From an uncultured Eubacteriales bacterium (GTDB lineage: Bacteria; Bacillota; Clostridia; Christensenellales; Aristaeellaceae), in assembly GCA_902790525.1 (NCBI GenBank), contig CADASI010000035.1:1-58683 (forward strand): a stretch of DNA of 58,683 bases. The letters run 5' to 3'. Below the pieces are notes generated by a model. The model worked only from the letters and a program-made list of their open reading frames with translations. It did not search any database and was not told the origin of the DNA. Position numbers and translations under genes: made by a program. Below are positions 7,914 to 26,396 of the stretch, in pieces (the stretch's first letter is position 1; each line of letters begins with the position of its first letter).

Positions 7914-7965
7914 TTGCCTCCTCCTTATTGTTAAATGCGCGCTTCAAATAGTATTGTCCACTCTA

Positions 7966-9741: not shown

Positions 9742-9780
9742 ACTTTCTCCTTCTATCGCTTTTGTCTGGTATCACTGAAG

Positions 9781-10698
9781 CTAACTCAAGCTTAACGCTT
9801 TCAGATACCGCCCCACCGCGTCCCGCCAGTCCGGCAGGGGCTCAAAGCCGCACTGTATGAGCTTTGATTTATCCAGCCGGCTGTTAAAGGGTCTGGCGGC
9901 CTTGGAGAGGCCGTATTCGGCGGTGGTGACGGGAATGACGTTCACGTTCAAGCCGGCCTGGCGAAAGATCTCCTTCGCGAAATCGGCCCAGCTGATGTAG
10001 CCGCCCTCGTTGGTGGCGTGGTAGTAGCCGTACTTGTCGGTCTCGATCATGTCCACGAGCAGGCGGGCCAAATCGAGGGTGTAGGTGGGCGTGCCGATCT
10101 GGTCGTCCACCACCCGGAGGGTATCGTGGGTCCCGCCCAGCCGGAGCATGGTCTTAATGAAGTTCTTGCCATTCAAGCCGAACACCCAGGCGATGCGCAC
10201 GATGAAGAACTTCTCCACCAGCGCGCTGACAGCCTTCTCGCCGCCCAGCTTGGTCTCGCCGTACACGTTCAGCGGCGCGTAGTCTTTGCAGTCCGGCTGC
10301 CAGGGCGCGGTGCCCTGGCCGTCGAACACGTAATCGGTGGAGATGTACATCATCTTGCAGCCCAGCGCCTTGCAGGCCTCGGCGATATTGCGCGTGCCGC
10401 CCTCGTTGATGGCCTGCACCTTGCCCCGGTTCTCCGCGTCCTCGGCGGCGTCCACGGCGGTCCAGGCGGCGCAGTGGATCACGGCGTCGGGCCGGACTTC
10501 CTCCAGCGCGCGGCGCACCGCCGCGGCGTCGGTAATGTCCGTCTGCACATAGGGCATCGAACACACCGCGCTGTTGTCCTGTATGCCGCTGTACGCGGGG
10601 GCGATGTCGCTGCCCACGCCCGCGTGGCCGCGCCTGTTCAGTTCATTCATTACGTCGTGGCCCAGCTGGCCGCCGACGCCTGTAACAAATACCTTCAT
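9781..10698 (-). CDS. rfbD: dTDP-4-dehydrorhamnose reductase
   Basis: A 305-residue short-chain dehydrogenase/reductase that makes dTDP-L-rhamnose, the last step of the RfbABCD pathway. The Rossmann motif GVGGQLG is at 7-13, STDYVFDG at 120-127 and the catalytic YGETK at 146-150; the ends and length are normal. The ATG at 10698 has GGAGGAG six bases upstream, whereas an earlier TTG overlaps that site. Codon use is GC-rich, in contrast to its AT-rich flanks. It is separated from rfbA, rfbB and rfbC by the GT-C/GT2/GtrA cassette. Confidence 0.93.
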   Translation of the reverse strand: MKVFVTGVGGQLGHDVMNELNRRGHAGVGSDIAPAYSGIQDNSAVCSMPYVQTDITDAAAVRRALEEVRPDAVIHCAAWTAVDAAEDAENRGKVQAINEGGTRNIAEACKALGCKMMYISTDYVFDGQGTAPWQPDCKDYAPLNVYGETKLGGEKAVSALVEKFFIVRIAWVFGLNGKNFIKTMLRLGGTHDTLRVVDDQIGTPTYTLDLARLLVDMIETDKYGYYHATNEGGYISWADFAKEIFRQAGLNVNVIPVTTAEYGLSKAARPFNSRLDKSKLIQCGFEPLPDWRDAVGRYLKALSLS

Positions 10699-10720
10699 AG
10701 ATTGCTCCTCCAAGTATTGA

Positions 10721-11932: not shown

Positions 11933-13720
11933 CTATCTGTCCGCAAACAGTTTAACCGAAGGATCAAACACAGATTTCTTTTTCTTCCCCATAATAGCTA
12001 TACGAACTAGTATGATCAGAAGTAACCAGGCAGCGATGGAAAAAGAGTTTGTTATAATCCAACCATGAAGCCGCTTGTAAAAACCATCAGCAGGTAATAT
12101 GTACATCCATAGCCTATCAATGTTGCTTAGTAGGAAGGATGACAAAGCGATTATATATATATATTTCCATCCCCCGCTACACAATACAAACAGCGCGACC
12201 ATTGGGATGGCAAGATATTGATTTACAATGGCAGAGGAGAAACATACCAAAGAAATCAAATAGATTAACAATGCGATATCGTAACTTTGCTTTCTTACTA
12301 CGAAAGAAACAATTAGCATACATGCAAGAAAAACAAAAAAGCTGATCCCTCCAGACAAACCCAAATGTTCATACAGAGCATGAAATAATGGTGAGTTATT
12401 TTTACTCCTGTACAGGAACACATTGTTCATTACTCCCTCGAAAGCAGTGCCGTTTCCTATCATAAAGGGAATGAAACTTAACAGAAAAAGGGCTGGCGGT
12501 GCAAAAGCATAGAGCAGCTTCTTTTTAATGGACAATTTGCTTGAAAGGAGCAGAAATACAGGAACAAAAAACAGGATATGCTTGGTTATAAGAGATAACG
12601 TAAGAAAAACAACAAAACCTATATCCTTTCGGTTCCATTCCGTGGCTCCATTAAAACAGGGTATGGTCAGCAAGCCAAACAATACAGCCATGTTGTCAAA
12701 CTGGTTGTGATTCCCAGAGATATAAACAGATATGGGATTGAGGAAGAATAGCAGTGCAGCTTTTTCTGAATATCTTCTTGCAATAAACACTGTAATGCCC
12801 AAATCGGTAAAGGTAAGTATTGAAACAATCAATATCCTGTACAGATCTTTCCAGTTTTCCCCGGCAATAAGAGAAATGCGATAAAGTAATCCTTGAAGAA
12901 TAAAGAAAATCGGGCCATAATTGTATCTGGATGTCTCAGCGTATACATTTCTGCAGTTTCCGGCAATCTCCCCAACGATACAATAGGATTCGAAATCATA
13001 ATTATAACCAAGGGCCATGACCATGAATCGCAAGACAATACCCAGAAACAGAATTGAGAGAATACTCTCATTCTTCCATAACAAACGTGTGTTACTATCT
13101 CCGTTCAAAAATGAATATTCGGAGGTTGAGAAGCGCTTAACTAACAGCCAGATCAGTGTGAACACTGAAGCCAGAATGCATGATAAAAACAGGTTCGCAA
13201 CATGGATTGCCCAAGGAAAGGCGATTTCAAGGCTTTGATCGCTGACTTCTATATGATCAATTGTAACAATACCATTGATATCGATACGCAGTGCGCTACT
13301 CTCCCCCGCAGGAATATCCGCCGTATAAACATCGGATTTAGCCTTGATAGAATCGCTTTTTTCAAAACTCTCATTCTCAGAAACAGAATACACTTCAATA
13401 ACTGTGTCTGTCTCGAGGGGCTGCTTGAATGCAATCCTCAAAGAATTGATCTTCAGGGGGACATCAAATACAAATATCATCTGCGGATCTTCTCCGGTTG
13501 GAGCATACAAGCCGCCCAAGCCACCCGGTAACATCTCAGCATCATTGAGGTAATACCTATAACTGTCATTGGGAAACAGTTCTAACGTAGAGTTAGGCAT
13601 TCTCACTGTCAAAATCTTGTGACTAGCCCACTGATACCCTATAGCAGATGCCAGCAAGACCAGTATCATAACGATGCATCCAAGCAAAAATCTTTTTGAT
13701 GATCTAAACGGATTCCCCAT
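11933..13720 (-). CDS. GT-C-type membrane glycosyltransferase
   Basis: About 595 residues: an N-terminal helix (about 12-32), an extracytoplasmic beta-rich domain (about 40-180), then roughly ten membrane helices. The loop motif NYDFESYCIVGEIAGNCRNV followed by SRYNYGPIFF matches mannosyltransferase-like GT-C proteins, where the Asp/Glu pair is catalytic. The ATG at 13720 has TGGGGGAA seven bases upstream; an open extension to 13771 overlaps rfbB and has no ribosome site. It is AT-rich relative to rfbB. It is followed by the GT2 and GtrA genes, its probable donor-supply partners. Confidence 0.75.
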   Translation of the reverse strand: MGNPFRSSKRFLLGCIVMILVLLASAIGYQWASHKILTVRMPNSTLELFPNDSYRYYLNDAEMLPGGLGGLYAPTGEDPQMIFVFDVPLKINSLRIAFKQPLETDTVIEVYSVSENESFEKSDSIKAKSDVYTADIPAGESSALRIDINGIVTIDHIEVSDQSLEIAFPWAIHVANLFLSCILASVFTLIWLLVKRFSTSEYSFLNGDSNTRLLWKNESILSILFLGIVLRFMVMALGYNYDFESYCIVGEIAGNCRNVYAETSRYNYGPIFFILQGLLYRISLIAGENWKDLYRILIVSILTFTDLGITVFIARRYSEKAALLFFLNPISVYISGNHNQFDNMAVLFGLLTIPCFNGATEWNRKDIGFVVFLTLSLITKHILFFVPVFLLLSSKLSIKKKLLYAFAPPALFLLSFIPFMIGNGTAFEGVMNNVFLYRSKNNSPLFHALYEHLGLSGGISFFVFLACMLIVSFVVRKQSYDIALLIYLISLVCFSSAIVNQYLAIPMVALFVLCSGGWKYIYIIALSSFLLSNIDRLWMYILPADGFYKRLHGWIITNSFSIAAWLLLIILVRIAIMGKKKKSVFDPSVKLFADR

Positions 13721-13757
13721 GCAGTGGTTCCCCCAGAACGTGTCTAACATCAACGCC

Positions 13758-14777
13758 TTACCGGTTGCCATACATCTGCGCGTAGTAGTTCTGATACTCG
13801 CCAGAGATGATGGTCTCCCACCACTCGCGGTTGTCGAGGTACCACTGGATGGTCTTCTTGATGCCGTCGGCGAACTTGGTCTCCGGCAGCCAGCCCAGCT
13901 CGTTGTGGATCTTGGTGGGGTCGATGGCGTAGCGCATGTCGTGGCCCTTGCGGTCGGTCACGTAGGTGATGAGGCTCTCGGGCTTGCCCAATTCTTTGCA
14001 GATCAGCTTCACGATGTCGATGTTGCGCATCTCGTTGTGGCCGCCGATGTTGTACACCTCGCCCACGCGCCCCTTGTGGATGATCAGGTCGATGGCCTTG
14101 CAGTGGTCCTCGACGTACAGCCAGTCGCGCACGTTCAGGCCCTCGCCGTACACGGGCAGGGGCTTGTCGTTTAAAGCGTTGGCGATCATCAGCGGGATCA
14201 GCTTCTCCGGGAAGTGGTAGGGCCCGTAGTTGTTGGAGCAGCGGGAGATGGTCACCGGCAGGCCGAAGGTGCGGTGATACGCCAGCACCAAGAGGTCCGC
14301 GCCCGCCTTGGAGGACGAGTAGGGGCTCGAGGTGTGGATCGGCGTCTCCTCGGTGAACAGCAGGTCGGGCCGGTCCAGCGGCAGGTCGCCGTAGACCTCG
14401 TCGGTGGACACCTGGTGATAGCGGGTAATGCCGTGCTTGCGGCAGGCGTCCATCAGCACGGAGGTACCGATGATGTTGGTCTCCAGGAATACGCCGGGGT
14501 TCTCGATGGAGCGGTCCACGTGGCTCTCCGCGGCGAAGTTCACCACGATGTCGGGATGCTCCTCCTCGAACAGCCGGTTCACCGCCTCGCGGTCGCAGAT
14601 GTCCGCCTTCACGAAGCGGAAGTTCGGGTTGTCCATGACCGGCGCGAGCGTCGAGAGGTTGCCCGCGTAGGTCAGCTTGTCCAGGCAGACGATCCGGTAA
14701 TCCGGGTGCGCCGCGAGCATGTGAAAGATGAAGTTTGAGCCGATGAATCCGGCGCCGCCGGTGACGATGATGGTCAT
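13758..14777 (-). CDS. rfbB: dTDP-glucose 4,6-dehydratase
   Basis: A 339-residue extended SDR enzyme that converts dTDP-glucose to dTDP-4-keto-6-deoxyglucose. The NAD motif TGGAGFIGSN is at 6-15, the active-site TDEVYG at 125-130 and the catalytic YSSSK at 153-157; length and ends are normal. GGAGATAG precedes the ATG. It follows rfbC by 18 bp on the minus strand. The gene is strongly GC-rich and appears intact. Confidence 0.95.
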   Translation of the reverse strand: MTIIVTGGAGFIGSNFIFHMLAAHPDYRIVCLDKLTYAGNLSTLAPVMDNPNFRFVKADICDREAVNRLFEEEHPDIVVNFAAESHVDRSIENPGVFLETNIIGTSVLMDACRKHGITRYHQVSTDEVYGDLPLDRPDLLFTEETPIHTSSPYSSSKAGADLLVLAYHRTFGLPVTISRCSNNYGPYHFPEKLIPLMIANALNDKPLPVYGEGLNVRDWLYVEDHCKAIDLIIHKGRVGEVYNIGGHNEMRNIDIVKLICKELGKPESLITYVTDRKGHDMRYAIDPTKIHNELGWLPETKFADGIKKTIQWYLDNREWWETIISGEYQNYYAQMYGNR

Positions 14778-14795: not shown

Positions 14796-15359
14796 TCAGA
14801 TTTCGCCGTACACGAAGTTGCAGTCGCTGTCCTCAAGCAGCGGGGCGGCGGTGTCCTTCTGCGAGAGCAGCTCCTCCCGGACCTCGCCCCAGTCCACGCC
14901 GATGGCGGGATCGTTGAACCGTATGCCCCGGTCGCACGCCTTGCTGTACAGGTTGTCCACCTTGTAGCAGAACTCCACGTCCTCCGTCAGGGTCTTGAAG
15001 CCGTGGCCGAAGCCCCGGGGGATCATCAGCATGCGCTTGTTGTCCGCGGAGAGCTCCACCGCCACCCACTGGCGGTAGGTCGGGCTGCCCCTGCGCAGGT
15101 CCACCGCCACGTCCATCACCGCGCCGCGGGTCACGCGCACCAGCTTGGCCTGGGCCATGGGCGCGTTCTGAAAGTGGATGCCCCGCAGTATGCCCTTCTG
15201 CGCGGAGTAGGACTGATTGTCCTGCACGAAGTCGTAGTGAAGGCCCATCTCCTCGAAGTTCCGGGTGGACCAGGTCTCCATGAAATAGCCCCGCTGATCG
15301 CCGAACACCTGGGGCTCGATGATGTACACGCCCTCTAACTTTGTCTCGATCCTGTTCAT
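14796..15359 (-). CDS. rfbC: dTDP-4-dehydrorhamnose 3,5-epimerase
   Basis: A 187-residue RmlC cupin. The segment RGIHFQ (59-64) holds the catalytic His, IPRGFGHGF (113-121) is the family signature and the tyrosine in CYKVDN (131-136) is conserved. The start codon overlaps the stop of the disrupted rfbA (TGATG), so the two are translationally coupled. The gene looks intact and supplies the third step of dTDP-L-rhamnose synthesis. Confidence 0.95.
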   Translation of the reverse strand: MNRIETKLEGVYIIEPQVFGDQRGYFMETWSTRNFEEMGLHYDFVQDNQSYSAQKGILRGIHFQNAPMAQAKLVRVTRGAVMDVAVDLRRGSPTYRQWVAVELSADNKRMLMIPRGFGHGFKTLTEDVEFCYKVDNLYSKACDRGIRFNDPAIGVDWGEVREELLSQKDTAAPLLEDSDCNFVYGEI

Positions 15360-16172
15360 CAGTAGCGCACCTTCCCCTCCGCCACGGCCTTCAGATGCTG
15401 CCCGTAGGGGCTCTTGCCGTAGCGCGCCGCGGACTCCAACAGCTTATCCCTGGTGATCCAATCGTTCTTATAGGCGATCTCCTCCGGCGCGGAGATCTTG
15501 ATCGACTGGCGCTTCTCGATCATGCGCACGAAGTCCGCCGCGTCCACCAGGCTGTCCATGGTGCCGGTGTCCAGCCAGGCGAAGCCGCGGCCCAGGAGCT
15601 GCACGTCCAGCAGACCCTTTTTCAGGCCCCTTGGGGTAGAAGTACAGCCCGGTGATGGCGTAGTTGCTCTTGGGGTTCTTGGGCTTCTCCTCCACGGAGA
15701 CGACCTTTCCGTCCGCGTCAAACTCTACGATGCCGAAGCGCTCGGGGTCGTTGACGTAGTAGCCGAACACCGTCGCGCGGCTGTTGACCTCCGCGTCCCA
15801 GGCGGCGGAGCGCAGGATCCGGCCAAAGCCGTTGCCGTAGAAGATGTTGTCGCCCAGCACCATGGCGCAGGCGTCGTCCCCGATAAAGTCTTCGCCCAGC
15901 AGGAAGGCCTGGGCCAGCCCGTCGGGGGAGGGCTGCACCACGTACTGAAGGCGCACGCCGAACTCGCCGCCGTCGCCCAGCAGGTGCTCGAAGCGCGGGG
16001 TGTCCTCCGGGGTGGAGATGATCAGTATGTCCCGGATGCCCGCGAGCATCAGCGTGGACAGCGGATAGTAGACCATCGGCTTGTCGTAGACCGGCAAAAG
16101 CTGCTTGGATGTGACCATGGTCAGCGGATACAGCCGCGTGCCGGCGCCGCCGGCGAGTATGATGCCTTTCAT
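15359..16172 (-). pseudogene. rfbA: Glucose-1-phosphate thymidylyltransferase with internal deletion and frameshift
   Basis: RmlA makes dTDP-glucose, the entry point to dTDP-L-rhamnose. Frame one is normal from [14 protein letters not shown] (ATG at 16172, GGGGAGG upstream) through [15 protein letters not shown] to LYFYPKG at residue 182. It then reads out of frame. The correct C-terminal frame resumes at once as [20 protein letters not shown] and runs to the stop at 15359. Compared with the family, about 25 residues are missing, including the conserved PSxRGELEIT block, and the reading frame also changes. The junction lies at about 15620-15628. Everything else in the gene is well conserved, so the lesion is recent or is an assembly error. 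Confidence 0.85.
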
Positions 16173-16215
16173 AATAGCCTCCCCATCGTACAATTCAGGA
16201 TTCAGTAAACGGACA

Positions 16216-17127
16216 TCAAAGCATTTTCAAATAAGTCAGATAGTCGCGGATGCCCTGCTCCAGCGGGCGGCAGACGACGCCGGTGGCAGCGATCATCTTG
16301 TCGTTTCTCGCAATACTGCACTTGACGTCCACGCTCCTCGTGGCCTGGTAATCGACGTCCGCACGGAACCCGAGCTTCTCAAACAGGCGGATGATCTCAA
16401 CCTGGGAAACGCCGACGCCCGTCGAGATGTTGAAGGTGTGCATGTCGCCTTCGTAGTGCAGCAGCGCCTCCATGGCTTTGCACACATCCTCGATGTAGAT
16501 ATAATCCCGGACCACGCTGCCGTCGCCCCAGATCTCCAGCTTCTGACGATGCAATATGCTCTTGACCACGGCGTCGATAAAGCCGACGCCCTTCAGATAA
16601 TCCTGGCCGGGGCCGTAGGGATTCGTGATGCGGCAGGACATGAAGCACGTCCCCTGCTGCTCGTTGAAGGCCCGCATCGCCGTCTCAACGCACAGTTTCA
16701 CGCTCCCGTAGTGGTTGATGGGACGCAGGGGGTCCGATTCGTCAAAAGGACGGCCGGGGTATTTCCCGTAGACCGTGCCGGCGGAGGACAAAAAGATCAG
16801 CCGGCCTTTCGTATGGGTCAAGCGGTCGAACAGCTTGATCGTCTGGACAAAATCCCGGGTATATCCGCGCATATACATGGCGTTTGAATTGCCGGGATTG
16901 ATCGTTGAGAGCGCATGGATGATCACATCCTGTCCCTCGGTCAGCACATCAATGGAGGAATCCTCAAAAAAATCGCCGGTGAGATAGCGCACACGGGGGT
17001 CTTCCCGCTCCGGCTTTCTCACGTCAAAGACGCAAACGCGATAGCCCGCGTCGCTGAGATAGCGCGAAAGATTCTGTCCTATGAAGCCGTTGCCTCCCAG
17101 GATCATGACATTACAGTTTTTGTTCAT
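16216..17127 (-). CDS. NAD-dependent sugar epimerase/dehydratase
   Basis: A 303-residue extended SDR enzyme, GalE-like. It shows the NAD motif GGNGFIG (11-17), the catalytic SSAGTVYG region and the YGSVK tetrad, and [15 protein letters not shown], typical of UDP- or GDP-sugar 4-epimerases. The start at 17127 has GAAGGAA nine bases upstream and overlaps the preceding glycosyltransferase gene by 17 bp. The substrate cannot be named; the product is probably a sugar nucleotide used by a transferase in the cluster. Confidence 0.82.
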
Positions 17128-18337
17128 CTTCTTTGATTCCTTCGACGATGCATTCATAGACTTTATTCGTCTCATCGTCCCAATCGGTCGCTACGGCGCA
17201 TTTCAGGCCGGCCTCGCGAAGCGCCTTGAGCTTTTCAGGGTGATTCAGATAATGCTGGAGGGTGTCGGCGATGTTGAGCGGATCGTTGTCGATGATGATG
17301 GCGTTGCGCTCATCGACCATCCAGGCGTTGTTTTCGCTTCCCTGGGTGGCGATGACGGAGTTGGAGGCCATGACCTCCAACGGCAGCAGGGAGAGGTTCG
17401 TCGGCGACATCACGAGGCAGATATCGCATTGCGCGTACATATCCGACAGCTTGTCCAGCGAAACGCTCCCGGCGCTGACGTGGTTGAAGGGGATGTAATA
17501 CCTGCTCACATCCCAGCCCGCCAGGACGACTTCCACCTCCGGCATGCGCCGGGTCAATTCAATCAGCGCCAGCAGGCCAAGCTCAAAGCAGCGCCGCGGC
17601 GTGACGGGGCGCGCATAGAAGAATATGCGCTGCTTGTCGTCGCGCTTTTTGCCGGGGCGGTACAGCTGCTTGTCGTAGGAGAATCGGAAGCTGTTGCAGG
17701 GCATGGAATACTCCGTCTCCAGCTTGTGCTTCAGCCAGTCCCCCGCCGTAATGCCCCTGAATCCGAAACGATAGGTGTTCGAGGCCAGCATGTATTCCGA
17801 TCCGATCGGATAGAAATAGGATTCGAAGTCCTGTACAAAGTAAAACTTTGAAACGGCGTTGTCAAAGTGCCGCACGAAATAGGCGGTCGGCCAGGAGGTT
17901 GCGACGATGCCGTGGCAAAACGGCATGTTGTCCGTCGAGCAGTGCACCTCGATCTCAGGATCCAGTATGGGGTAGTTTTCGGACAGGAAGGCGCGCAGGG
18001 CCTTGTCCGTCGCGAAGTTGACGGGATGCACGACGTAGATGCGGTTCTTGATGCCTCTCCGTTCCAGCGCGGAGATGAACCTGAAGATATTGATGTGGCC
18101 GCCGGAGCCCTGCCCCATCTCGGGAATGACCCAGTTGAGCCGGATCGGGCCGTCCCGGTGCTCCAGGTAATCCTGCCGGTTGAAGGGGACTTTCCTGTCG
18201 TCGATCGCCATACCGTACATCTGCTCGACGTGGATCACGAACGACCCTTCCCCGTCCAGCAGCGAATCCGGGATGCCGTGGTGCACCCGCAGATAGTGTA
18301 TGCCTTTTTTAAAAAAGCGCCAGTATTTCTTCAGCAT
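17111..18337 (-). CDS. WsaF-type rhamnosyltransferase (GT4)
   Basis: A 408-residue GT-B enzyme. The N-terminal part carries LNWVIPEMGQGSGGHINIFR and a VQDFESYFYPIGSEYMLA segment, and the C-terminal domain has the donor-site LSLLPLEVMASNSVIAT. This matches the WsaF family, first described in S-layer glycan assembly of Geobacillus, which adds rhamnose to polyrhamnan. AAGGGGAG lies upstream of the ATG. The family assignment is from memory of its motifs, not a search. It fits the rfb genes and the ABC exporter in the same operon. Confidence 0.82.
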   Translation of the reverse strand: MLKKYWRFFKKGIHYLRVHHGIPDSLLDGEGSFVIHVEQMYGMAIDDRKVPFNRQDYLEHRDGPIRLNWVIPEMGQGSGGHINIFRFISALERRGIKNRIYVVHPVNFATDKALRAFLSENYPILDPEIEVHCSTDNMPFCHGIVATSWPTAYFVRHFDNAVSKFYFVQDFESYFYPIGSEYMLASNTYRFGFRGITAGDWLKHKLETEYSMPCNSFRFSYDKQLYRPGKKRDDKQRIFFYARPVTPRRCFELGLLALIELTRRMPEVEVVLAGWDVSRYYIPFNHVSAGSVSLDKLSDMYAQCDICLVMSPTNLSLLPLEVMASNSVIATQGSENNAWMVDERNAIIIDNDPLNIADTLQHYLNHPEKLKALREAGLKCAVATDWDDETNKVYECIVEGIKEDEQKL

Positions 18338-18349
18338 GGTCGTCTCCCC

Positions 18350-19330
18350 TTACTTTTTCCGATTTCTCTGCCGGTATTGTTGTGAAAACCATCGGTCCAT
18401 CCGCCTCTGGGTCTTTTCGGACATGTCCGCGTATTTGCCGCCCAGATAGCCCGCGACCGTGCGGTCGATATCCCGCCTTATGGCATAGCCGCTCCAGTAG
18501 AGCTTCTGCCTCAGCGGCAGATCCGCATGGCGCGTGTATCTCAGATCATTCAGGATCAGCGCCGCCGCGCGCAACGGTATGAACAGGCCCCGGCGCACGA
18601 TTCTGAAGCCATGAAGCTCGTACAGGCCCTTGTATTCGTCGAAATACCGGCGAAAATACTGCCTCAGGGGGAAGTTGTGGGAGTGATAGACCGGGGCGAA
18701 CGGGCAATAGACCTTGTGATAGCCCATCTCCATCATCTTTTTGGTCCAGATCTGATCCTCGGCGAACTCCACGTCCTCGTAGGGATACTTTTCAAAAACG
18801 CTTCGCCGCACGCAGGCGTTGTTGTCCGACGAAAAGGCCATCAAGTGGCGATAGCCCTCCTCCCGGGCGTAACGTTCGGGATCCTCGATCCAGTAATACG
18901 TGTTATCGACACCGAAGCCCTTGAAGTGCGCGTTGATGTCCCGGGCGTCAAAGATGTTGCAGCCGGGATAGGGATAGTGGATCCCAAAGCCCACCACGCA
19001 TTGATTGTCCTTCCGGATGGCCCGGATCATCTGATCGAGCCATTCCTCCGACGCCGGCAACGCATCCTGCGTGATGAAGAAGATGAACTCGCCGGTGCCC
19101 AGCGAGGCGGCCAGATTCCGCGTCCGCCCGTGGCCAAATTCGGAGGGCTGTATCTGATGCAGCCTGACCTTCGGATACCTTTTGATCGTCTCCAGCGTGC
19201 CGTCGACCGACCCGGAATCAACGCAGATGACCTCGTATTCAAGGCACGTCTTCTGGCTGAAAACCGCCTGAAGGACGCGATCCAGCAATTCGCCGCCGTT
19301 TTTCGTCGGAATGCAAATGGTTACGTCCAT
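18350..19330 (-). CDS. Family 2 rhamnosyltransferase
   Basis: A 326-residue GT-A enzyme with VTICIPTKNGGELL at the N-terminus, VDSGSVDGT and the FGHGRTRNLA...ITQDALP pattern. That pattern (F-x-H-G-x-T-R-N and TQDA) is characteristic of rhamnosyltransferases acting on polyrhamnose. The C-terminal third is rich in Arg and aromatic residues and may bind the membrane. The start follows the upstream stop by 2 bp; GGAGG lies 14 nt before the ATG, a rather long spacing. Confidence 0.83.
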   Translation of the reverse strand: MDVTICIPTKNGGELLDRVLQAVFSQKTCLEYEVICVDSGSVDGTLETIKRYPKVRLHQIQPSEFGHGRTRNLAASLGTGEFIFFITQDALPASEEWLDQMIRAIRKDNQCVVGFGIHYPYPGCNIFDARDINAHFKGFGVDNTYYWIEDPERYAREEGYRHLMAFSSDNNACVRRSVFEKYPYEDVEFAEDQIWTKKMMEMGYHKVYCPFAPVYHSHNFPLRQYFRRYFDEYKGLYELHGFRIVRRGLFIPLRAAALILNDLRYTRHADLPLRQKLYWSGYAIRRDIDRTVAGYLGGKYADMSEKTQRRMDRWFSQQYRQRNRKK

Positions 19331-19332
19331 GT

Positions 19333-21228
19333 TTAACTCTGCGACCTCCGCTTCTTGATCCAGTACGCGGCCTTGTGCCAGATGGGCGCGCGCTTCTTCC
19401 ATACCCGCAGTTCGGCGGCGGTCTCTTCGAGGGCCTTTTCGGCGATGTGCACGCGCTTCCAGAGCTCCTCGTTGGCCTTCAAAAGCTCCTCGTTGGCCTT
19501 GCGGTACACCTCCGTGAGCAGCATACTATCCAGGTTCAGCGATGAGAAATCCTTTTCAAATTCGCGGTTTTCAAAGCGTTCCAGCTTGTCGTTTTCCCCC
19601 GAGACGTATCGCTGGAAGCTGAGCTCCATCTCAAAGTAGGTCTTTCGCAGCGAAGCATCGACGCCCAGCCTCTCCCAGACCGAGGCGCGCTCCTCTTCGC
19701 TGAAGCACAGCATGTCCACGTTGACCAGCAGCGCTCTGTAAAGCATGAACGAGAGCGGCACGGGGAAGGGCATGACCCATTCGTAATCCGCGATGAGATA
19801 GCCGTCGCCCTCAATGAACACATTGTCATAATTGAGGTCGAGATTCGTAACCCCCAGGGCATCCGCGCCCTCCTCCAGCGGTACATCCCCGAAGATCGCC
19901 TGAAACGCCTCTGTCTTCCTGAAAGGAACGGTCCCGTAGGCGGCGATCAGCGCATCCCTGAAGCCCGCGATGGCATCGCAAAAAGCCCCCGTGTTTCCGC
20001 GCAGGTCCGACAGCAAGTCGCGCAGCGTCCTCTGGGTACAGTAGTCAAAATCGATCGTCCCGTCCTCATTCAGTCGGCAGGGAACTATGCCGACGGGTGC
20101 GCCGGGCGCCATGCCGCCAACCAGCCGGTCATGGCATTCCCGCATATGTCCAAGGTGCGCTTCGGCGGACGGGGTCGCAGCCTTTTTCCGAACCAGCCTT
20201 TCCCCGCCCTCGCGCTCGATGATCAGCGTATGGTGCCTGTATGCGGGTCTGCGTTCCATCGACGATTTGGCAAATACGACCCGGTCGCCGCCCTTCACGG
20301 CCTGCTTTGTCAGCCGGACGAGGAATGAATTGAACATATCGGGCATCAGTCCGGCGTCGATCATCACATCGTTGGCCAGATCCTCGTTGAACAGGAGGAT
20401 CCGATTCGCGTCGAAATGCTGCCAGTTCCGGTTCAGCTCGCCCCGGGCCGGCAGGTAACGGTCGGAGAAAACCTTCATCGGGAATTTGTAATCCGGATAG
20501 GGATAGTAGAACTCACAGCAAAAACCGCAGTCGTCGAAGATCTTCCTGAGCTCCCGCCTTGAGAAGGTGACCGGACCGTCGCGGTGCGGGTAGCCCTCGA
20601 TGCTCTCGTAAAAGCGCCCGGTGTGGTCCTCCCTGCACCCGGCGAAATACTTCATGCCGATCTTGTTTTCGATGGCGACAAACAGCTCCGCGTCGGGTTC
20701 CATGACGGCGCCGATGCAATCCAACATGTATTTCTGCGGGTTCTCCGCGCTGGAGAACACGGATGCGTACTCGAGCACGCCGATGAGCAGCACATAGTCA
20801 AACCGGCGGTCGATATCCTTCAGTATGTCTTCGATGGCGCCGACATAGATCTCCAGGCCCTCGCAATCGGCGTGGCGCACAGCATTGATCCTGCAGCGGC
20901 GCAGCGAAAGGTCCACGGCGGTCACCCGGAGCCCCCGGTTCAACAGCGCACCGGTGACCGCGCCGCACCCCGCGCCCAGCTCCAGCACCCTCGCGCCCTT
21001 GCGAAACGGATACCAGGAGACGATGTTTTCACGGATCGGCGAAAGATGGTACAGCACGGGCCAGGAGCCCTTGCGCATGATGATGTCGTTGTATTCCTCC
21101 GAGGGATGGTTTTCCACGATGGACAGCAGCTCGTTTTCCGTCGCGTCCCCGTCGGAATACTGATCGTCGCCCCTGTACCACTTCGTGTTCAACTGAACCT
21201 TGCCGACCCATTCAACCTTTTCAGTCAT
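19333..21228 (-). CDS. Methyltransferase/kinase-like/coiled-coil protein, WbdD-like chain terminator candidate
   Basis: A 631-residue protein in three parts. Residues about 60-260 are a class I SAM methyltransferase (motif I LELGAGCG, 82-89; acidic AVDLS near 104-108). Residues about 315-545 resemble an aminoglycoside/protein-kinase fold, with a candidate lysine in LVRKKA (345-350), the catalytic-loop motif NLDLNYDN (462-469; D464, N469) and a second metal Asp in IADYEW (D481). Residues 575-612 form a heptad-rich coiled coil, and the tail AAYWIKKRR looks amphipathic. This order matches WbdD, the methyltransferase-kinase that caps ABC-exported O-antigens and sets their length. The gene lies 1 bp after the wzt-like gene. 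GGGAGGAA sets the start. Confidence 0.75.
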   Translation of the reverse strand: MTEKVEWVGKVQLNTKWYRGDDQYSDGDATENELLSIVENHPSEEYNDIIMRKGSWPVLYHLSPIRENIVSWYPFRKGARVLELGAGCGAVTGALLNRGLRVTAVDLSLRRCRINAVRHADCEGLEIYVGAIEDILKDIDRRFDYVLLIGVLEYASVFSSAENPQKYMLDCIGAVMEPDAELFVAIENKIGMKYFAGCREDHTGRFYESIEGYPHRDGPVTFSRRELRKIFDDCGFCCEFYYPYPDYKFPMKVFSDRYLPARGELNRNWQHFDANRILLFNEDLANDVMIDAGLMPDMFNSFLVRLTKQAVKGGDRVVFAKSSMERRPAYRHHTLIIEREGGERLVRKKAATPSAEAHLGHMRECHDRLVGGMAPGAPVGIVPCRLNEDGTIDFDYCTQRTLRDLLSDLRGNTGAFCDAIAGFRDALIAAYGTVPFRKTEAFQAIFGDVPLEEGADALGVTNLDLNYDNVFIEGDGYLIADYEWVMPFPVPLSFMLYRALLVNVDMLCFSEEERASVWERLGVDASLRKTYFEMELSFQRYVSGENDKLERFENREFEKDFSSLNLDSMLLTEVYRKANEELLKANEELWKRVHIAEKALEETAAELRVWKKRAPIWHKAAYWIKKRRSQS

Positions 21229-21229
21229 T

Positions 21230-22555
21230 TCAGCGCGTTCCTCCCTGTCTCTTGATGCGCTCGTAACCGACCTTCGATTCAACATCGTATACGCCGATGG
21301 TGTTGTATTCGGAGACCACCTGAATATGGCACATATCGTACAGCCTGTGGTGAACGCACAGTTCCCCGTTGGTATAGCTGGTGATGCCCAGCGATACCAG
21401 GTACTGCCCGCCCTGCAGGCGCATGACCTGTTTGAATTTCACGATGCCGGTCATGCCGGCTTCCGTCTCCTCCAGCGTCTGGCCCTCGAGCATCGTGTTC
21501 GTGCCGCACAGGTCGGTGCCCTTTCGGTCCTTGATCGTAAAGGCGAATATGGGCTCCGAGATCTTTTCGTTAAAGCGGAACTTGATGGCGATGGTGTATT
21601 CCGAGCCCTTCATGAGGATGCTGGAAACCTCGCCCTGGTCGTTGATGATCCCATAGTCCTCGATGACCGCGCGCTCATCGCCGTACTCCACATAATTCGG
21701 GTTCTGCAGCACCGCGCTTTTCCACATCACCGGCTCCCGGTCGTCGGCGCTCTCATCGGCATCGGGCGATTCCGGCACCACCGCGTCTTCAACCGTCACG
21801 GACTTCAGCCCGTTGTCCTCGTCGTACTGGTCGACCAGTATCTTCCGGTAGATGTCCACGACCTCTTTGCACTTGCCCAGGGCGATCTGTCTGCCCTTGT
21901 GCAGGAGCAGACAGCGGTTGCAGTACTTGATGATGCTGCTCAGATCATGGGAGACGAAGAGTATCGTCTTGCCCATCTTCATAAACTCATCGAACTTTCG
22001 GTAGCACTTTGTCTGGAAGAAGATATCGCCGACGCTCAGCGCCTCGTCGATGATCAGTATGTCCGGATCGACGTTGATCGCCACGGCGAACGCCAGGCGC
22101 GCGAACATGCCGCTGGAATAGATCTTGACCGGGCGATAGATAAAATCCCCCAGCTCGGCGAACTCCTCGATCAGGGGGATGCGCTTTTTCATCTCCTCCT
22201 CGGAATAGCCCATGATCTTGCCGTTGAGAATGATGTTTTCGATCCCTGTGTATTCCTGATTAAAGCCCGCGCCGAGCTCCAGCAGGGCGCTGACCCTTCC
22301 CTTGACGTCGACCCGGCCGCTGCTGGGCTGCAACACGCCGGTAATGATTTTCAGCAGCGTGGATTTTCCCGAGCCGTTCGTGCCGATGACGCCGAGGCAC
22401 TCGCCCTGTGTGAGGCTGAAATTGATGTCCTCCAGCGCCACAAACTGATCGTGAAACGACTTGCGCCGGAACGATATGACTTCCTTGAAGCGATCAATTT
22501 CCTTTTTATAGGTGTTGTAGGTCTTATTGATATGCTCAGCTTCGATAACGGGCAT
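21230..22555 (-). CDS. Polysaccharide ABC exporter ATPase with carbohydrate-binding domain (Wzt-like)
   Basis: A 441-residue Wzt-type ATPase. The nucleotide-binding domain (1-240) shows Walker A GTNGSGKST (58-66), signature YSSGMFARLAF and Walker B ILIIDEALSVGD. Residues about 280-441 form a beta-rich Wzt_C domain (KGSEYTIAIKFRF, LQGGQYLVSLGI), the part that recognises the capped non-reducing end of the glycan in O9a-type systems. It pairs with the permease encoded directly upstream. GAGAGGAA precedes the ATG. The adjacent methyltransferase-kinase could make the cap that this domain reads. Confidence 0.93.
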   Translation of the reverse strand: MPVIEAEHINKTYNTYKKEIDRFKEVISFRRKSFHDQFVALEDINFSLTQGECLGVIGTNGSGKSTLLKIITGVLQPSSGRVDVKGRVSALLELGAGFNQEYTGIENIILNGKIMGYSEEEMKKRIPLIEEFAELGDFIYRPVKIYSSGMFARLAFAVAINVDPDILIIDEALSVGDIFFQTKCYRKFDEFMKMGKTILFVSHDLSSIIKYCNRCLLLHKGRQIALGKCKEVVDIYRKILVDQYDEDNGLKSVTVEDAVVPESPDADESADDREPVMWKSAVLQNPNYVEYGDERAVIEDYGIINDQGEVSSILMKGSEYTIAIKFRFNEKISEPIFAFTIKDRKGTDLCGTNTMLEGQTLEETEAGMTGIVKFKQVMRLQGGQYLVSLGITSYTNGELCVHHRLYDMCHIQVVSEYNTIGVYDVESKVGYERIKRQGGTR

Positions 22556-22573
22556 GAATATGTTCCTCTCCGA

Positions 22574-23377
22574 TCAGATGATATCGGCAAAATGCACCTT
22601 CAGGCTATTGAAGAGCTTTTTCCCGGCAAACAGCAGCACCAGCACAAAGCCCCAGTAATACAGCGTCAGCAGCGGGCGCTGAAAGAACCATGCCTCGTTC
22701 ATGTAGGACTGCCGGTATCCGCTGATCACGTAGTAAAGCGGGTTCAGCTTGAAGATGAAGGCGTACTTCGCAGGCAGCATCGAGATATCCCACATCACCG
22801 GGCACGCCCACATCAACACCATCAGCATGATCTCCAGCAGCTGGGTAAAATCGCGGAAGAAGGGCGTCAACGCACAGTTGATCCGGGCAAACGCGGTGGT
22901 GATGCAGAAGACGCAAACCATGTAATAGGGGATCTGCAGCATCGTCCAGCACAGGGGCAGGCCCCTGATGATGTACAGGAACAGAACAAACAACACGAAG
23001 AAGCAGTGGACGATGCTCGAGGAGATGACTTTGACAAAGGGCAGGATGTCAATGCTGAACCGCACCTTTTTTACCAGATATGAATATTCCAGAAGCGCAT
23101 ACGCACCGGACAGCGTGCCGTCGGCAAAGAAGAACCAGACGATGATGCCCGGGAGAAACCAGAACGCATAGGGGTAATGATTGCCGGCCGGTGTCGCGCG
23201 GGCAATCACCGAAAACACAAACATGTACACGCACGCCTGGACGATCGGCTTGATAAACGCCCACAGGATGCCCAGCTGAGAGCTGGCATATTTGCTCTTG
23301 AAATCGTTCTCCGCGAGGGAAAGCGTCAGCGAGATCTTCTTTTTTAATTCATCATATCGTTTTTCAGCGCTATTCAC
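22574..23377 (-). CDS. Polysaccharide ABC exporter permease (Wzm-like)
   Basis: About 267 residues with six membrane helices and the ABC-2 fold. The N-terminal cytoplasmic part ENDFKSKYASSQLGILWAF is typical of Wzm/TagG permeases, and helix 6 is followed by a short tail. I choose a GTG start at 23377 because the alternative TTG 18 bp upstream lies within the likely ribosome site (TTGGAGAAAG). It forms the exporter with the Wzt-like ATPase. Such transporters move finished, lipid-linked glycan across the membrane. Confidence 0.9.
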   Translation of the reverse strand: MNSAEKRYDELKKKISLTLSLAENDFKSKYASSQLGILWAFIKPIVQACVYMFVFSVIARATPAGNHYPYAFWFLPGIIVWFFFADGTLSGAYALLEYSYLVKKVRFSIDILPFVKVISSSIVHCFFVLFVLFLYIIRGLPLCWTMLQIPYYMVCVFCITTAFARINCALTPFFRDFTQLLEIMLMVLMWACPVMWDISMLPAKYAFIFKLNPLYYVISGYRQSYMNEAWFFQRPLLTLYYWGFVLVLLFAGKKLFNSLKVHFADII

Positions 23378-23396
23378 GACTGTCTCTTTCTCCAAT

Positions 23397-24590
23397 CTAC
23401 AGCTTTTCCCGGGTGGCGCGCATCGCTGCCGACAGCTTTTGGATCACGACCCCCGGCAGCCGCAGGCCGTAGCGACGGCTCTTTTCGACGGCCTGGTTCA
23501 GCGCGTTGCCGGTTTTCAGAAGCGGCATCGGCAGCGCCTGGATTCGGGCGCACGCGCAGGGAACAAAGATTTCCGGATGGGCTTCAAAAAGCGCCAGGCC
23601 GATGGTCTCCGGGCTCAGCTCCGTCGCCGCGAACACGCTCAGCCGCCGCCGCCGGGCCTCGCGGCCCGCATCGTCGTCGATCTCCGCGCACAGCGCGTCG
23701 TACCACGCCCCGGCTTCGTTTTTGCAGAAGCGCCCGTATATCTCCCGTTGGGGGATGAAGGTATACGGCGGCAGGTCGGAGTAGATGCCCGCGACGCCCG
23801 CCGCCGCGTATTCGCAGAACTTGTTGTAGTGCTTGCAGGCATGAAAGGGCGTGTCCGGCATCGGCGCGAGGCCGATATCCCATTCCAGGGCGTTGAGCTG
23901 CCGCCGGTAGTCGATATAGGATTCCAGATATGGCACGCAGGTCGCGCCGAGCTCCTCCGCAAAATCCGGCGTGGCGCCGAAGAACTCGAAGGCCACCCGG
24001 TCGCCGTAGCGCCGCCTGACGCCTAGCAGCGCCTCCCGCAGCAGCTTCTCCAGGTCCGACGTGCGATCGACCGAACCCGCGAAGCCGATCTTGACGGGCC
24101 TCCCCGCCGCGTGCGGCCTGAAGCGCGCCGGCTCCAGCGCGGGCTCCTCCGTGCGCATCGGCAGCCTCCCGTCCTCGGCGTACTTTTCCAGCAGTATCGG
24201 CGAGGGTGACAGTATCGCATCGCTCATCTCCACCATCGCGCGAATGTTGTCCTGTATCGCGGGCTGGCCCAGATACGCCGCGCTGCTGATCTGCGGGGGC
24301 AGGTTGAGCAGGTCGTCGTCCATGATGTAGACCAGCCGCCGTCCCGAAGCGTGCAGCGCCGTGACGATCCGGCGCTCGTACCAGTTGTCCAGGCGTCCCA
24401 GAAACGCGACGTCCGCCCACTCCAGGTCCGAGCGGCGCAGCCGCCGATCCCTGACGGCGCGGTATTCGATCCGGCCCAGCGCGTCCAGCGCCCTGAGTTG
24501 GCTGTACCCGCAAAGCCGCACGGAGGGTATCATTCTGCGGTAGATCAGCAGCGCATGGCATTTTCGCCCGTTTTGAGCCGTTTGAATCAT
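23397..24590 (-). CDS. GT-B-type glycosyltransferase (GT4-like)
   Basis: About 397 residues. The C-terminal half shows VKIGFAGSVDRTSDL and DIGLAPMPDTPFHACKHYNK followed by FCEYAAAGVAGIYSD, the glycosyltransferase-4 donor-binding pattern. The N-terminal half has YIMDDDLLNLP, common in capsule transferases that act on protein- or lipid-linked glycans. The start is uncertain among closely spaced ATGs; 24590 gives an 8-nt spacing from GGGG. It ends immediately before the Wzm-like permease gene. Confidence 0.75.
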   Translation of the reverse strand: MIQTAQNGRKCHALLIYRRMIPSVRLCGYSQLRALDALGRIEYRAVRDRRLRRSDLEWADVAFLGRLDNWYERRIVTALHASGRRLVYIMDDDLLNLPPQISSAAYLGQPAIQDNIRAMVEMSDAILSPSPILLEKYAEDGRLPMRTEEPALEPARFRPHAAGRPVKIGFAGSVDRTSDLEKLLREALLGVRRRYGDRVAFEFFGATPDFAEELGATCVPYLESYIDYRRQLNALEWDIGLAPMPDTPFHACKHYNKFCEYAAAGVAGIYSDLPPYTFIPQREIYGRFCKNEAGAWYDALCAEIDDDAGREARRRRLSVFAATELSPETIGLALFEAHPEIFVPCACARIQALPMPLLKTGNALNQAVEKSRRYGLRLPGVVIQKLSAAMRATREKL

Positions 24591-24607
24591 CCCCATATCC
24601 CCGGTAA

Positions 24608-25534
24608 TCAGCACAGCAGCAGCATCCCAGCCTTGCGGACCGCGCCGTGAATGAGGCGTCGGTATTTCAGCCAGAACAGCGGTCCGCTGTGGTTGCGCGT
24701 GAAGGCCGAAAGGAAGGCGCGGTCGTCTTCGGTCAGCGCGTCGGAAAACACACCGGCAAACGCCGAGGCCTGGCGCTTCTTTTTGACGATCGTGCGGCGA
24801 ACCTCTTTAAGCGCCCTCAGTTGCCGGGCAATGTACCCCGCGCTGTTCACGTTCTTCGCGCCCACGGCGTTGTCGATGTGCTGCCGGTAGGCGCCCAGGG
24901 GTTCGTCGAGGTACACGACATGCCCGAAACGCGCCGCCGTCGCCGCCAGCCACCAGTCGTGCATGATGATGCCGGTGGCGTCCCCGCGGGGCCTGCCCAG
25001 CCGGGCCAGCGCCCGGTTGATGCCCATCGCCCCGCCGGTAACCACGTTCTGCATCAGTATGCTCCGGTAGTCGAAGGCTTCAAAATACTGTCCCTGATAG
25101 CGCATCAGCGATGGCGCGAGGGGGTTCAGGTCCGCGTCCGTGGGAGTCTGGTCGCTGAACACCAGTATCGGCGTCTCCGGGCCCCATTGCGCCGCCGCCG
25201 CGATCAGCGCCTCGCGCGTGCGCTTCACCTTGTCCGGGTACCACACGTCGTCCTGGTCGCAGAAGAGCATGTATTCCGCGTCGCAGGTCGCCATCAGATC
25301 GAAGAAGTGGTCCCGGGCGCCGCCGAAGCGCCGCCCCGCGGGACGAACGCCGATCTTCTCCGGGTACCGCCGCGCGTAGTCCGCGATGATTGCGGGGGAG
25401 GCGTCCTCCGAGCCGTCGTCGGAGACGGTCAGGTGCCAGCGGTCGTCCGACTGCGCCAGTATGGAATCCAGCTGCTCCGCGAGGTAGCGTTCGCCGTTGT
25501 AGACGGCCAGCAGTATCTCCACAACCTCATTCAT
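24608..25534 (-). CDS. Family 2 rhamnosyltransferase (RgpB-like)
   Basis: A 308-residue GT-A enzyme beginning VEILLAVYNGERYLAEQLDS and containing SDDGSEDAS and MLFCDQDDVWYPDK, the pattern of rhamnosyltransferases in the RgpB/RfbF group. HDWW in the middle is also conserved in that group. The C-terminal basic helix may tether it to the membrane. AGGAGAAGG precedes the ATG, which overlaps the upstream gene by 8 bp. Linkage specificity cannot be read. Confidence 0.83.
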   Translation of the reverse strand: MNEVVEILLAVYNGERYLAEQLDSILAQSDDRWHLTVSDDGSEDASPAIIADYARRYPEKIGVRPAGRRFGGARDHFFDLMATCDAEYMLFCDQDDVWYPDKVKRTREALIAAAAQWGPETPILVFSDQTPTDADLNPLAPSLMRYQGQYFEAFDYRSILMQNVVTGGAMGINRALARLGRPRGDATGIIMHDWWLAATAARFGHVVYLDEPLGAYRQHIDNAVGAKNVNSAGYIARQLRALKEVRRTIVKKKRQASAFAGVFSDALTEDDRAFLSAFTRNHSGPLFWLKYRRLIHGAVRKAGMLLLC

Positions 25535-26396
25535 GCGCCTTCTCCTGCCGCCTTCCGGCGCGGTTGCCCAGCATGCGCGACAGGCAGTTGAGCCCGAAGG
25601 CGAACCATTCGATGATCCTGCCCCGCTTTAAAAGCTGCGCCGACACGGTCTTCACCATGCGCAGGCCCTCGCCCAGCGCGCCGGAATCTGGGAACCGGTC
25701 GGCGTAGCGGGTCAGGAACGCGCCCACCTTGCGGTTGCGCGTGTATTCCTGCCGCAGCGTGATATCGTGGGAGTGCCACACCTGCGCCTCGGCGCGATAG
25801 CCGAGCTTCCAGCCGGCGCGCAGGAAGTCCGCCGCGATGAGCATGTCCTCGTTGGTCTCGATGGGATGGGCGAACCCCCCGACCGCCTCGTAGGCCGCGC
25901 GGCGGTAGGCCGCGCACACGTCCGAGAGCAGGTACGCGCGGATGCCCAGCCGCGGGATGTCTGCCGCCGACCAGATGCGGCTCTCGTCGGGATAGCGAAA
26001 CGCCCGCACCAGCCTCTCCCGCTCGCTGGCCTCCGGGTACGCCACCTGCCGGGCGCACACCGCCGCCACGCCCGGGTCCTCAAAGGGCGCGAGCAACTCG
26101 GCCATGCAGCTTTCGTCCACAGGCAGGGCGTCCTGGGTCATCAGCACCGCGAAAGGCGTGCCGCACGTCCTGATCGCCATGTCCCGGGTGCCGCCGTGGT
26201 CGAACGCGCGGCGCTCGATCTCCATGACGCGCACGCCCTTGAGCTGCCTGACCCGCCGGGCGGTGCCGTTGTCCGACTGCGAATCGACCACCAGTATCGC
26301 CTCCGGCGGAAACGTCTGTCCCTGCAGCGCTTCAATCAGCCGCACGATCGCGGGGCCGGCGTTCAGCGTCGGTATGATCACCGTGTAATTTTCCAT
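25527..26396 (-). CDS. Family 2 rhamnosyltransferase, first gene of the cluster
   Basis: A 289-residue GT-A enzyme with VIIPTLNAGPAI, VDSQSDNGT, the FDHGGTRDMA motif and MTQDALPVD, all typical of rhamnosyltransferases. HSHDITLRQEY near residue 225 is also conserved. It is the promoter-proximal gene of the 26-kb cluster. No ribosome binding site is evident before its ATG, but the stop codon of a 34-codon upstream reading frame directly abuts it, so translation may be coupled. Confidence 0.83.
   Translation of the reverse strand: MENYTVIIPTLNAGPAIVRLIEALQGQTFPPEAILVVDSQSDNGTARRVRQLKGVRVMEIERRAFDHGGTRDMAIRTCGTPFAVLMTQDALPVDESCMAELLAPFEDPGVAAVCARQVAYPEASERERLVRAFRYPDESRIWSAADIPRLGIRAYLLSDVCAAYRRAAYEAVGGFAHPIETNEDMLIAADFLRAGWKLGYRAEAQVWHSHDITLRQEYTRNRKVGAFLTRYADRFPDSGALGEGLRMVKTVSAQLLKRGRIIEWFAFGLNCLSRMLGNRAGRRQEKAHE

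Follow-up and report, generated by a model that had tools for sequence, protein, structure and literature searches.

The window analysed here is a 58,683-nucleotide stretch, contig CADASI010000035.1 of assembly GCA_902790525.1 from an uncultured Eubacteriales bacterium. It carries on its minus strand three consecutive genes, for a Wzm-like permease, a Wzt ATPase with a C-terminal carbohydrate-binding domain (CBD) and a 631-residue protein with methyltransferase, kinase-like and helical parts, which probably constitute a terminate-then-export module of the type of ORF6 of Klebsiella pneumoniae O7 (ORF6-O7), here in a monoderm-type Clostridia genome. What is shown is the order of the genes, the identity of their domains, a kinase fold in structure prediction, and the conservation both of catalytic residues and of linkage. 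The system is real and recurs in monoderms, most likely as an O7-type terminator. The components of the module, all on the minus strand, are the following.

22574..23395, minus: Wzm-like ATP-binding cassette (ABC) permease, 273 residues; Pfam ABC2_membrane, E = 2.6e-18; TTG start at 23395
21230..22555, minus: Wzt ATPase with C-terminal CBD, 441 residues; ABC_tran, E = 1.2e-21; Wzt_C, E = 2.7e-41
21281..21691, minus: Wzt_C CBD, presumed cap reader; PF14524, E = 5.2e-42
19333..21228, minus: putative methyltransferase-kinase terminator, 631 residues; methyltransferase-type Pfam matches only; AlphaFold; Foldseek
20308..21228, minus: S-adenosylmethionine (SAM) methyltransferase domain, residues 1-307; Pfam Methyltransf_12/25/11 above cut-off
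19594..20307, minus: aminoglycoside phosphotransferase (APH)-like kinase domain, residues 308-545; kinase-only model; K348, D464, N469, D481
19390..19512, minus: long helix 573-613, presumed coiled coil; DSSP of the model; predicted local distance difference test (pLDDT) score of the block 50-82
19456..19500, minus: 21-bp (one-heptad) tandem repeat within the coil, 2.1 copies; Tandem Repeats Finder (TRF) score 76
19339..19380, minus: basic C-terminal helix 617-630; model helix and sequence

The tight order of Wzm, Wzt with Wzt_C and the 631-residue protein, proposed in an earlier, sequence-only reading of this region, is borne out by the open reading frames (ORFs) and by Pfam. The end then given to the region, 23377, coincides with an in-frame GTG that is a possible alternative start of the permease, but the ORF itself extends to the TTG at 23395. 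The permease also matches the NCBIfam model galactan_ABC_perm (E = 1.8e-14), under the family cut-off. The start of the 631-residue form, to which all residue numbers refer, lies one base past the Wzt stop and is preceded by a GGGAGG-type ribosome site; from an alternative start the ORF would span 19333-21285 and encode 650 residues.

Methyltransferase and kinase domains of the putative terminator

The methyltransferase part is recognized by Pfam (Methyltransf_12/25/11), AlphaFold and Foldseek alike, and the kinase fold suggested earlier for residues 315-545, named beforehand as a point on which the proposal turned, is predicted by AlphaFold. The full-length model, built on an alignment of 58 sequences (the window protein and 57 related loci), has a mean pLDDT of 90.4 and a predicted template modeling score (pTM) of 0.86. 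It lays out the methyltransferase at about residues 1-307, a two-lobed domain at 308-545, a weak linker, the helix 573-613 and the last helix 617-630; a kinase-only model reaches a pLDDT of 90.7. Invariant over 42 sequences are K348, D464, N469, D481-Y-E-W484, R326, T334, R498 and E535, a set that includes the Asp-Asn pair (D464/N469) and the metal Asp (D481) pointed out at the outset. Pfam assigns the window kinase segment to no family, and none of its families matches more than two of the 42 members; since Pfam is blind to this kinase, a terminator function is easily overlooked. Two plasmid relatives described below carry only the annotations 'class I SAM-dependent methyltransferase' and 'glycosyltransferase'; Pfam gives no glycosyltransferase domain match in the window protein.

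The relationship to WbdD, the methyltransferase-kinase of Escherichia coli O9a, is one of domain order. In a Foldseek search of the full model against the PDB, WbdD supplies the first three matches (4azs at rank 1, E = 3.6e-12) and occupies ranks 1, 2, 3, 5 and 48 among the 50 matches listed. It leads because it too joins a methyltransferase to a kinase; the template modeling (TM) score over the whole protein is only 0.22-0.33, so that domain order agrees and arrangement differs. With the kinase alone, the top matches are APH(3')-Ia (TM about 0.5) and macrolide phosphotransferases, the best E being 6.1e-6; human RioK1 is at rank 34 and PKMYT1 at rank 43. Neither WbdD nor AmiN (6sul) is among the 50 matches listed in this kinase-only search, although other APH-like enzymes are. 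By sequence, hmmsearch of a kinase profile against the PDB returned chance-level matches only (best E = 0.11), and a profile of six full-length sequences, including that of the window, returned methyltransferases and chance-like matches (60 of 62 rows). No WbdD chain was found by sequence in the PDB at E up to 1, and none at E up to 10 with the full-length profile (60 of 62 rows) or the kinase profile (all 17). The suggestion of a WbdD counterpart therefore keeps its footing in the top whole-model match, but not in the kinase, the sequence searches or the arrangement of the domains.

Relationship to ORF6 of Klebsiella pneumoniae O7

ORF6-O7 comprises an N-terminal methyltransferase, an unannotated AmiN-like kinase, an immunoglobulin-like (Ig-like) domain, a coil and family 2 glycosyltransferase (GT2) modules, and puts phosphate, then methyl, on position 3 of the terminal rhamnose (PMC11231755). 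Acceptor conversion is lost in its D441A variant, and its methylation is incomplete in vitro (PMC11231755). The comparison with ORF6-O7 was made through its published residue numbers and a relative from a Pseudomonas asturiensis plasmid (P0009). In P0009, residues Y28, Y66, G91, G93, E112 and Y158 carry numbers identical to those of the ORF6-O7 SAM site, and Y24, Y60, G85, G87, D106 and Y154 of the window protein align with these six positions, with Glu changed to Asp once (D106). The kinase Asp of P0009 (443; published as 441 in ORF6-O7) aligns with D464. This correspondence places the window protein with ORF6-O7-type terminators, and not with WbdD.

P0009 and a relative from a Citrobacter plasmid (P0010) are the two matching records among 72,556 plasmids. 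P0009 joins a methyltransferase and a kinase region to Ig-like motifs and two GT2 stretches, and immediately follows the genes for a permease and a Wzt_C ATPase; P0010 likewise comes right behind a Wzt_C ATPase; Wzt_C is found in the preceding ATPases of P0009 and P0010 with E = 2.1e-29 and 1.8e-26, respectively. The window kinase resembles the ORF6-O7 class in its lack of Pfam annotation, its predicted APH-like fold and the presence of the catalytic Asp. Shared with ORF6-O7 are, furthermore, the succession of a methyltransferase and an unannotated APH/AmiN-like kinase, a rhamnose-containing glycan and the Wzm/Wzt pathway, and some Clostridia relatives carry C-terminal GT2 or RgpF modules. In contrast to ORF6-O7, the window protein lacks Ig-like motifs and GT2 modules and its host has no LpxC match, 19 of the 80 related loci encode methyltransferase and kinase in separate ORFs, and the window genus has a coil of heptad-phased tandem repeats. 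On these alignments, ORF6-O7 appears to be the best-fitting known relative of the window protein, nearer than WbdD.

The exporter and its presumed cap reader

The C-terminal part of 21230-22555 matches Wzt_C in Pfam (E = 2.7e-41), as had been anticipated, and this is the only Wzt_C match in the genome. A profile of 23 Wzt_C domains (the window and 22 loci) finds in the PDB 2r5o, which we take to be the O9a domain, at E = 1.3e-13, the Aquifex transporter at 5.4e-10 and 5hno at 0.0011; when the two Gram-negative sequences are added to the profile, the lead of 2r5o over the Aquifex transporter grows (6.9e-23 vs. 8.9e-11). At most, these rankings hint at a reader of the methyl-phosphate type; 2r5o is listed as the CBD of an E. 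coli Wzt (PMC6856556). The full Wzt has its best PDB match in Aquifex Wzt (8dku). The binding domain of the Aquifex aeolicus protein recognizes a rhamnosyl or mannosyl cap, a phosphate-free 3-O-methyl sugar (PMC9445017), and differs in this from the phosphate cap considered here.

Linkage and distribution in the Clostridia

A profile scan of genome contigs returned at least 592 stretches, at least 451 of them encoding a relative, and the best 80 were kept, a set biased to the nearest kin of the query. These loci are labelled mostly as Lachnospiraceae or other Clostridia, together with one Schinkia and one Erysipelotrichales record, and their cultured carriers include Clostridium puniceum, Tepidibacter thalassicus, Robinsoniella peoriensis and Schinkia azotoformans. 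With Wzt_C-type ORFs called by blastp with the window domain and nucleotide-binding domains by a bit-score cut of our own, the 80 loci contain a Wzt_C-type ORF in 77, a nucleotide-binding domain in 75 and Wzm in 72 cases. The Wzt_C-type ORF lies at most 150 bp upstream of the terminator in 74 loci, 68 of them with Wzm as well, in agreement with the linkage to Wzt_C-type ATPases put forward in the sequence-only reading. Four of the remaining six begin at a contig end (L089) or have the Wzt_C-type ORF further away (L056, L072, L107). Methyltransferase and kinase form one ORF in 61 loci and separate ORFs in the other 19, of which one is truncated at a contig end. Of the 12 long kinase ORFs four were checked, and these carry RgpF domains in two cases and GT2 domains in the other two. 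Three loci (L058, L067, L072) hold a second Wzm/ATPase pair, whose extra ATPase, at 249-258 residues, is too short for Wzt_C.

In a phylum-wide sample, 15 of 398 genomes match the terminator at E up to 1e-20, the genome of the window included. Among 60 relatives, again including this genome, 12 have the terminator (strong match, E < 1e-20) and 15 have Wzt_C. The two coincide in 10, with the terminator alone in two (G009, G035), Wzt_C alone in five and neither in 43; nine further genomes with weak methyltransferase matches only (E from 1.8e-6 to 9.6e-4) were left uncounted. Ten of the 12 terminator genomes have Wzt_C too, and the co-occurrence across Clostridia that the sequence-only reading had put up for checking is seen here with a Fisher p of 2e-6, uncorrected for shared descent. 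Two members of the same genus without a terminator (G021, G019; loci L161, L162) encode a Wzt_C ATPase and, after it, ORFs of about 300 residues that are charged and look rich in helix; these may represent another kind of coil protein in capping systems.

The presumed C-terminal coil and its tandem repeats

The window terminator has 96 residues after E535, predicted to form a 41-residue helix and a short last helix; the latter (617-630) is basic and a possible membrane anchor. The coiled-coil part proposed earlier is favored by the predicted helix (573-613) and by heptad-phased repeats, but not by its pLDDT of 50-82 nor by a home-made heptad score that did no better than shuffled sequences. 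The repeat-bearing tails of loci L042 and L043, where heptad-phased repeats are present, were likewise not separated from shuffles (the score was reached by 3 of 20 in each), and the heptad score must therefore be regarded as insensitive and unvalidated.

In four relatives of the same genus (P0004-P0007; three of the four genomes are L042-L044 taken again), the coil is a tandem array with a 63-bp unit, that is, 21 residues or three heptads. The number of 21-residue units is 6, 4, 6 and 2 in P0004-P0007 and 0 in the window, and the tail after the kinase motif measures 205, 159, 205 and 121 residues, compared to 85 in the window. TRF reports 5.5, 5.6 and 3.6 copies in three of the four and none for the two-unit array; all these copy numbers rest on draft assemblies. 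Across 79 loci and the window, TRF detects 20 arrays after the kinase, nine of which, in seven loci and the window, have a period that is a multiple of 21 bp (63, 42 or 21; scores 76-576). Of the others, one is a 30-bp row that falls within a 63-bp array, and 10 are weak (scores 40-51) with other periods. Steps of whole heptads fit a coil under length change, and the array of 2, 4, 6 and 6 units is suggestive of a ruler that may change by whole turns.

A plain coil does not describe the tails of all 58 fused relatives, many of which show Ig-like motifs. Clostridium puniceum (L051, 7971-10328) and other relatives carry Y-x-D-x-G-x-G-F, R-x-D-P and D-P-x-I motifs after the kinase; in L051 the stretch has no Pfam family, and such stretches are perhaps a counterpart of the ORF6-O7 Ig-like domain.

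Neighboring genes and host

The genes flanking the module on the minus strand are as follows.

25527..26396, minus: GT2 upstream of Wzm; Glycos_transf_2; relatives in 1 of 80 loci
24608..25534, minus: GT2 upstream of Wzm; Glycos_transf_2; relatives in 1 of 80 loci
23397..24614, minus: ORF without Pfam family, upstream of Wzm; relatives in 3 of 80 loci
18350..19402, minus: GT2 glycosyltransferase; Pfam Glycos_transf_2, E = 1.5e-21
17111..18337, minus: WsaF-like glycosyltransferase; Pfam WsaF_C, E = 1.9e-15, WsaF_N, E = 9.8e-7; relatives in 7 of 80 loci
16216..17175, minus: NAD-dependent epimerase/dehydratase; Pfam Epimerase, E = 4.2e-42; relatives in 7 of 80 loci
15359..16193, minus: RmlA-like gene in two overlapping frames; relatives in 51 of 80 loci
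14796..15359, minus: RmlC; NCBIfam rmlC, E = 1e-67, above cut-off; relatives in 56 of 80 loci
13758..14777, minus: RmlB; NCBIfam dTDP_gluc_dehyt, E = 2.3e-150, above cut-off; relatives in 42 of 80 loci
9781..10713, minus: RmlD; NCBIfam rmlD, E = 2.9e-83, above cut-off; relatives in 14 of 80 loci

The context of a rhamnose-rich glycan, claimed from the outset, agrees with the rhamnose genes RmlB, RmlC and RmlD above their NCBIfam cut-offs. The RmlA-like gene appears to be frameshifted, whether naturally or through an assembly error: frame 15468-16193 covers the first part of the profile (NCBIfam rmlA, E = 1.1e-91, under cut-off) and frame 15359-15721 its end (NTP_transferase, E = 0.00036). The likelier start of the downstream GT2 is an ATG at 19330, three bases past the terminator stop; ORFs 72-80% identical to it are present in all five close loci (L042-L046), and in eight of the 80 loci overall. 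Further along the minus strand, a fucose pyrophosphorylase domain (1608-3539, E = 1.8e-76) is followed by an overlapping GHMP kinase ORF (637-1614, E = 7.7e-10), a pair with a possible role in sugar salvage or activation. The G+C content falls to 0.40-0.44 at 6001-10000 and 12001-14000, against 0.50-0.67 in adjacent 2-kb steps; these stretches, which mostly cover big membrane proteins (one DUF2142, two without a Pfam family), were perhaps recently acquired.

The host genome, about 95% complete in 199 contigs, yields no match to LpxC, in keeping with the Gram-positive-type host assumed from the sequence alone. It encodes three LytR-CpsA-Psr (LCP) proteins, one Wzy_C protein on another contig, three S-layer homology (SLH) repeats in one open frame and three Bac_transf initiators. 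Records of the same genus are labelled Clostridia or Clostridiales, and one comes from sheep rumen. In cultured T. thalassicus (L113), the cluster comprises a Bac_transf initiator, an RmlB-like dehydratase, Wzm, Wzt with CBD, separate methyltransferase and kinase, glycosyltransferases and a Wzy_C-tetratricopeptide repeat (TPR) ligase, and is much like S-layer glycan clusters (PMC2943079).

Discussion

In the terminate-then-export model, the neighboring glycosyltransferases would build a rhamnose-containing chain on a lipid carrier. By analogy with the chemistry of ORF6-O7 and WbdD, the APH-like kinase domain would phosphorylate the non-reducing terminal sugar, most likely rhamnose, and the methyltransferase domain would then methylate the phosphate, ending chain growth. 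The C-terminal helix or coil could keep the catalytic head off the polymerase, thereby setting a minimum chain length. The identified Wzt_C domain, as in its family, would recognize the cap, so that only finished chains enter the Wzm/Wzt channel, and an enzyme encoded outside the window would join the chain to the wall or to a surface protein.

Several observations weigh against this model. The window coil is short, and its heptad score was reached by two of 20 shuffles. At least two of the three Ig-like motifs occur in 49 of 83 tails and none in the window clade; with these motifs in many relatives, a simple ruler does not hold for every member of the family. P0010 has Glu at the equivalent of D481, and the N-lobe Lys aligns to Arg in P0010 and to His in P0009, in a stretch that aligns poorly. 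The window CBD alone is undiscriminating (Aquifex 6e-5, 2r5o 1.8e-4, 5hno 2.3e-4), and relatives of the WsaF-like protein (7 of 80 loci) and of the downstream GT2 (8 of 80) occur in close kin only. Linkage has its exceptions: L109 is without a transporter in its 8-kb flanks and L074 has none in the 2 kb upstream, G009 has methyltransferase and kinase and no transporter match on its 19-kb contig, and the terminator and Wzt_C of G056 lie on different contigs. In G035, Wzt is 243 residues long without Wzt_C and a GT2 gene stands between it and the terminator (L040, 4335-7721, minus), a methyltransferase-kinase that is thus the second gene after a Wzt lacking an obvious reader; five relatives, moreover, have Wzt_C and no terminator. 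Linkage alone, finally, is no proof of interaction, because adjacent genes can be inherited en bloc.

The exceptions and the five relatives with Wzt_C alone are what might be expected if the protein decorated repeat units or a lipid-linked intermediate, with Wzt_C reading something else and no termination taking place, but direct linkage in 74 of 80 loci and the demonstration that the related ORF6-O7 is a terminator (PMC11231755) make this most unlikely. A true WbdD, with a eukaryotic-like kinase, a methyl-phosphate cap and a long trimeric coiled-coil ruler, is also very unlikely. It would account for the whole-model ranking, the same order of methyltransferase, kinase and helix in one chain, the ABC-transporter pathway and the CBD profile being nearest 2r5o. 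The window kinase alone, however, is nearest APH-type enzymes, even if RioK1 and PKMYT1 are also among the listed matches, whereas that of WbdD is eukaryotic-like (PMC3482155). Sequence searches yield no WbdD chain, TM is low across both domains, and the C-terminal region of WbdD (residues 460-708; PMC3482155) is far longer than the window tail.

A further explanation keeps the phosphate cap and changes the end product, which could be a 2,3-cyclic phosphate, or phosphate together with an O-methyl group on a sugar hydroxyl. The S-layer glycan of Clostridioides difficile SLCT-11 (Ox247), compared by its authors with O9a, ends in 2,3-cyclophospho-rhamnose and is associated with an ABC exporter, with no cap enzyme named in the available text (PMC6254364). 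It shares with the window system the Clostridia, ABC export and a terminal rhamnose with phosphate, and differs in its cyclic cap. The separation of methyltransferase and kinase in 19 of 80 loci, by which the two may act independently, and the incomplete methylation by ORF6-O7 noted above would also accord with such a product. The methyltransferase is nonetheless kept with a conserved SAM site, and the closest characterized methyltransferase-kinase methylates the phosphate (PMC11231755), so that this explanation appears improbable, and an O7-type terminator with a methyl-phosphate product is preferred.

Cap-and-read export is not without Gram-positive precedent. In Geobacillus stearothermophilus, a 2-O-methyl cap made by WsaE and bound by Wzt was proposed in a 2010 review; WsaE is described as combining a methyltransferase with two rhamnosyltransferase domains and as lacking a kinase, and its methylation is independent of chain length in vitro (PMC2943079). 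That system resembles the one described here in its Gram-positive host, its rhamnan, the succession of Wzm/Wzt and a cap enzyme, a WsaF relative and a Wzt predicted to bind the cap (PMC2943079), and differs in the 2-O-methyl cap, the window protein having a predicted kinase fold and no glycosyltransferase domain match. Given this precedent and the C. difficile phosphate cap, the idea of capping in Gram-positive bacteria is not novel; among the literature matches listed, from which subscription journals were mostly absent, no description of a (methyl-)phosphate terminator family with a reader in Clostridia was found.

Export after capping with methyl-phosphate was elucidated in the O antigens of enterobacteria, and the same parts recur here, their order conserved, in the 80 kept loci. 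They offer candidate enzymes for phosphate capping in Clostridia and make the length control of monoderm surface glycans testable, with the heptad-phased repeat arrays as a natural series bearing on the ruler model. A more tentative extension, doubtful as it stands, is that Clostridia widely use (methyl-)phosphate termination and that, in the window genus, the heptad-phased repeat (0, 2, 4, 6 and 6 copies) sets glycan length. Were this so, the gain or loss of repeat units would be the route by which chain length evolves, and perhaps also differs between members of one population; the terminator family would then be a candidate source of phosphate caps like the one on the S-layer glycan of C. 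difficile SLCT-11.

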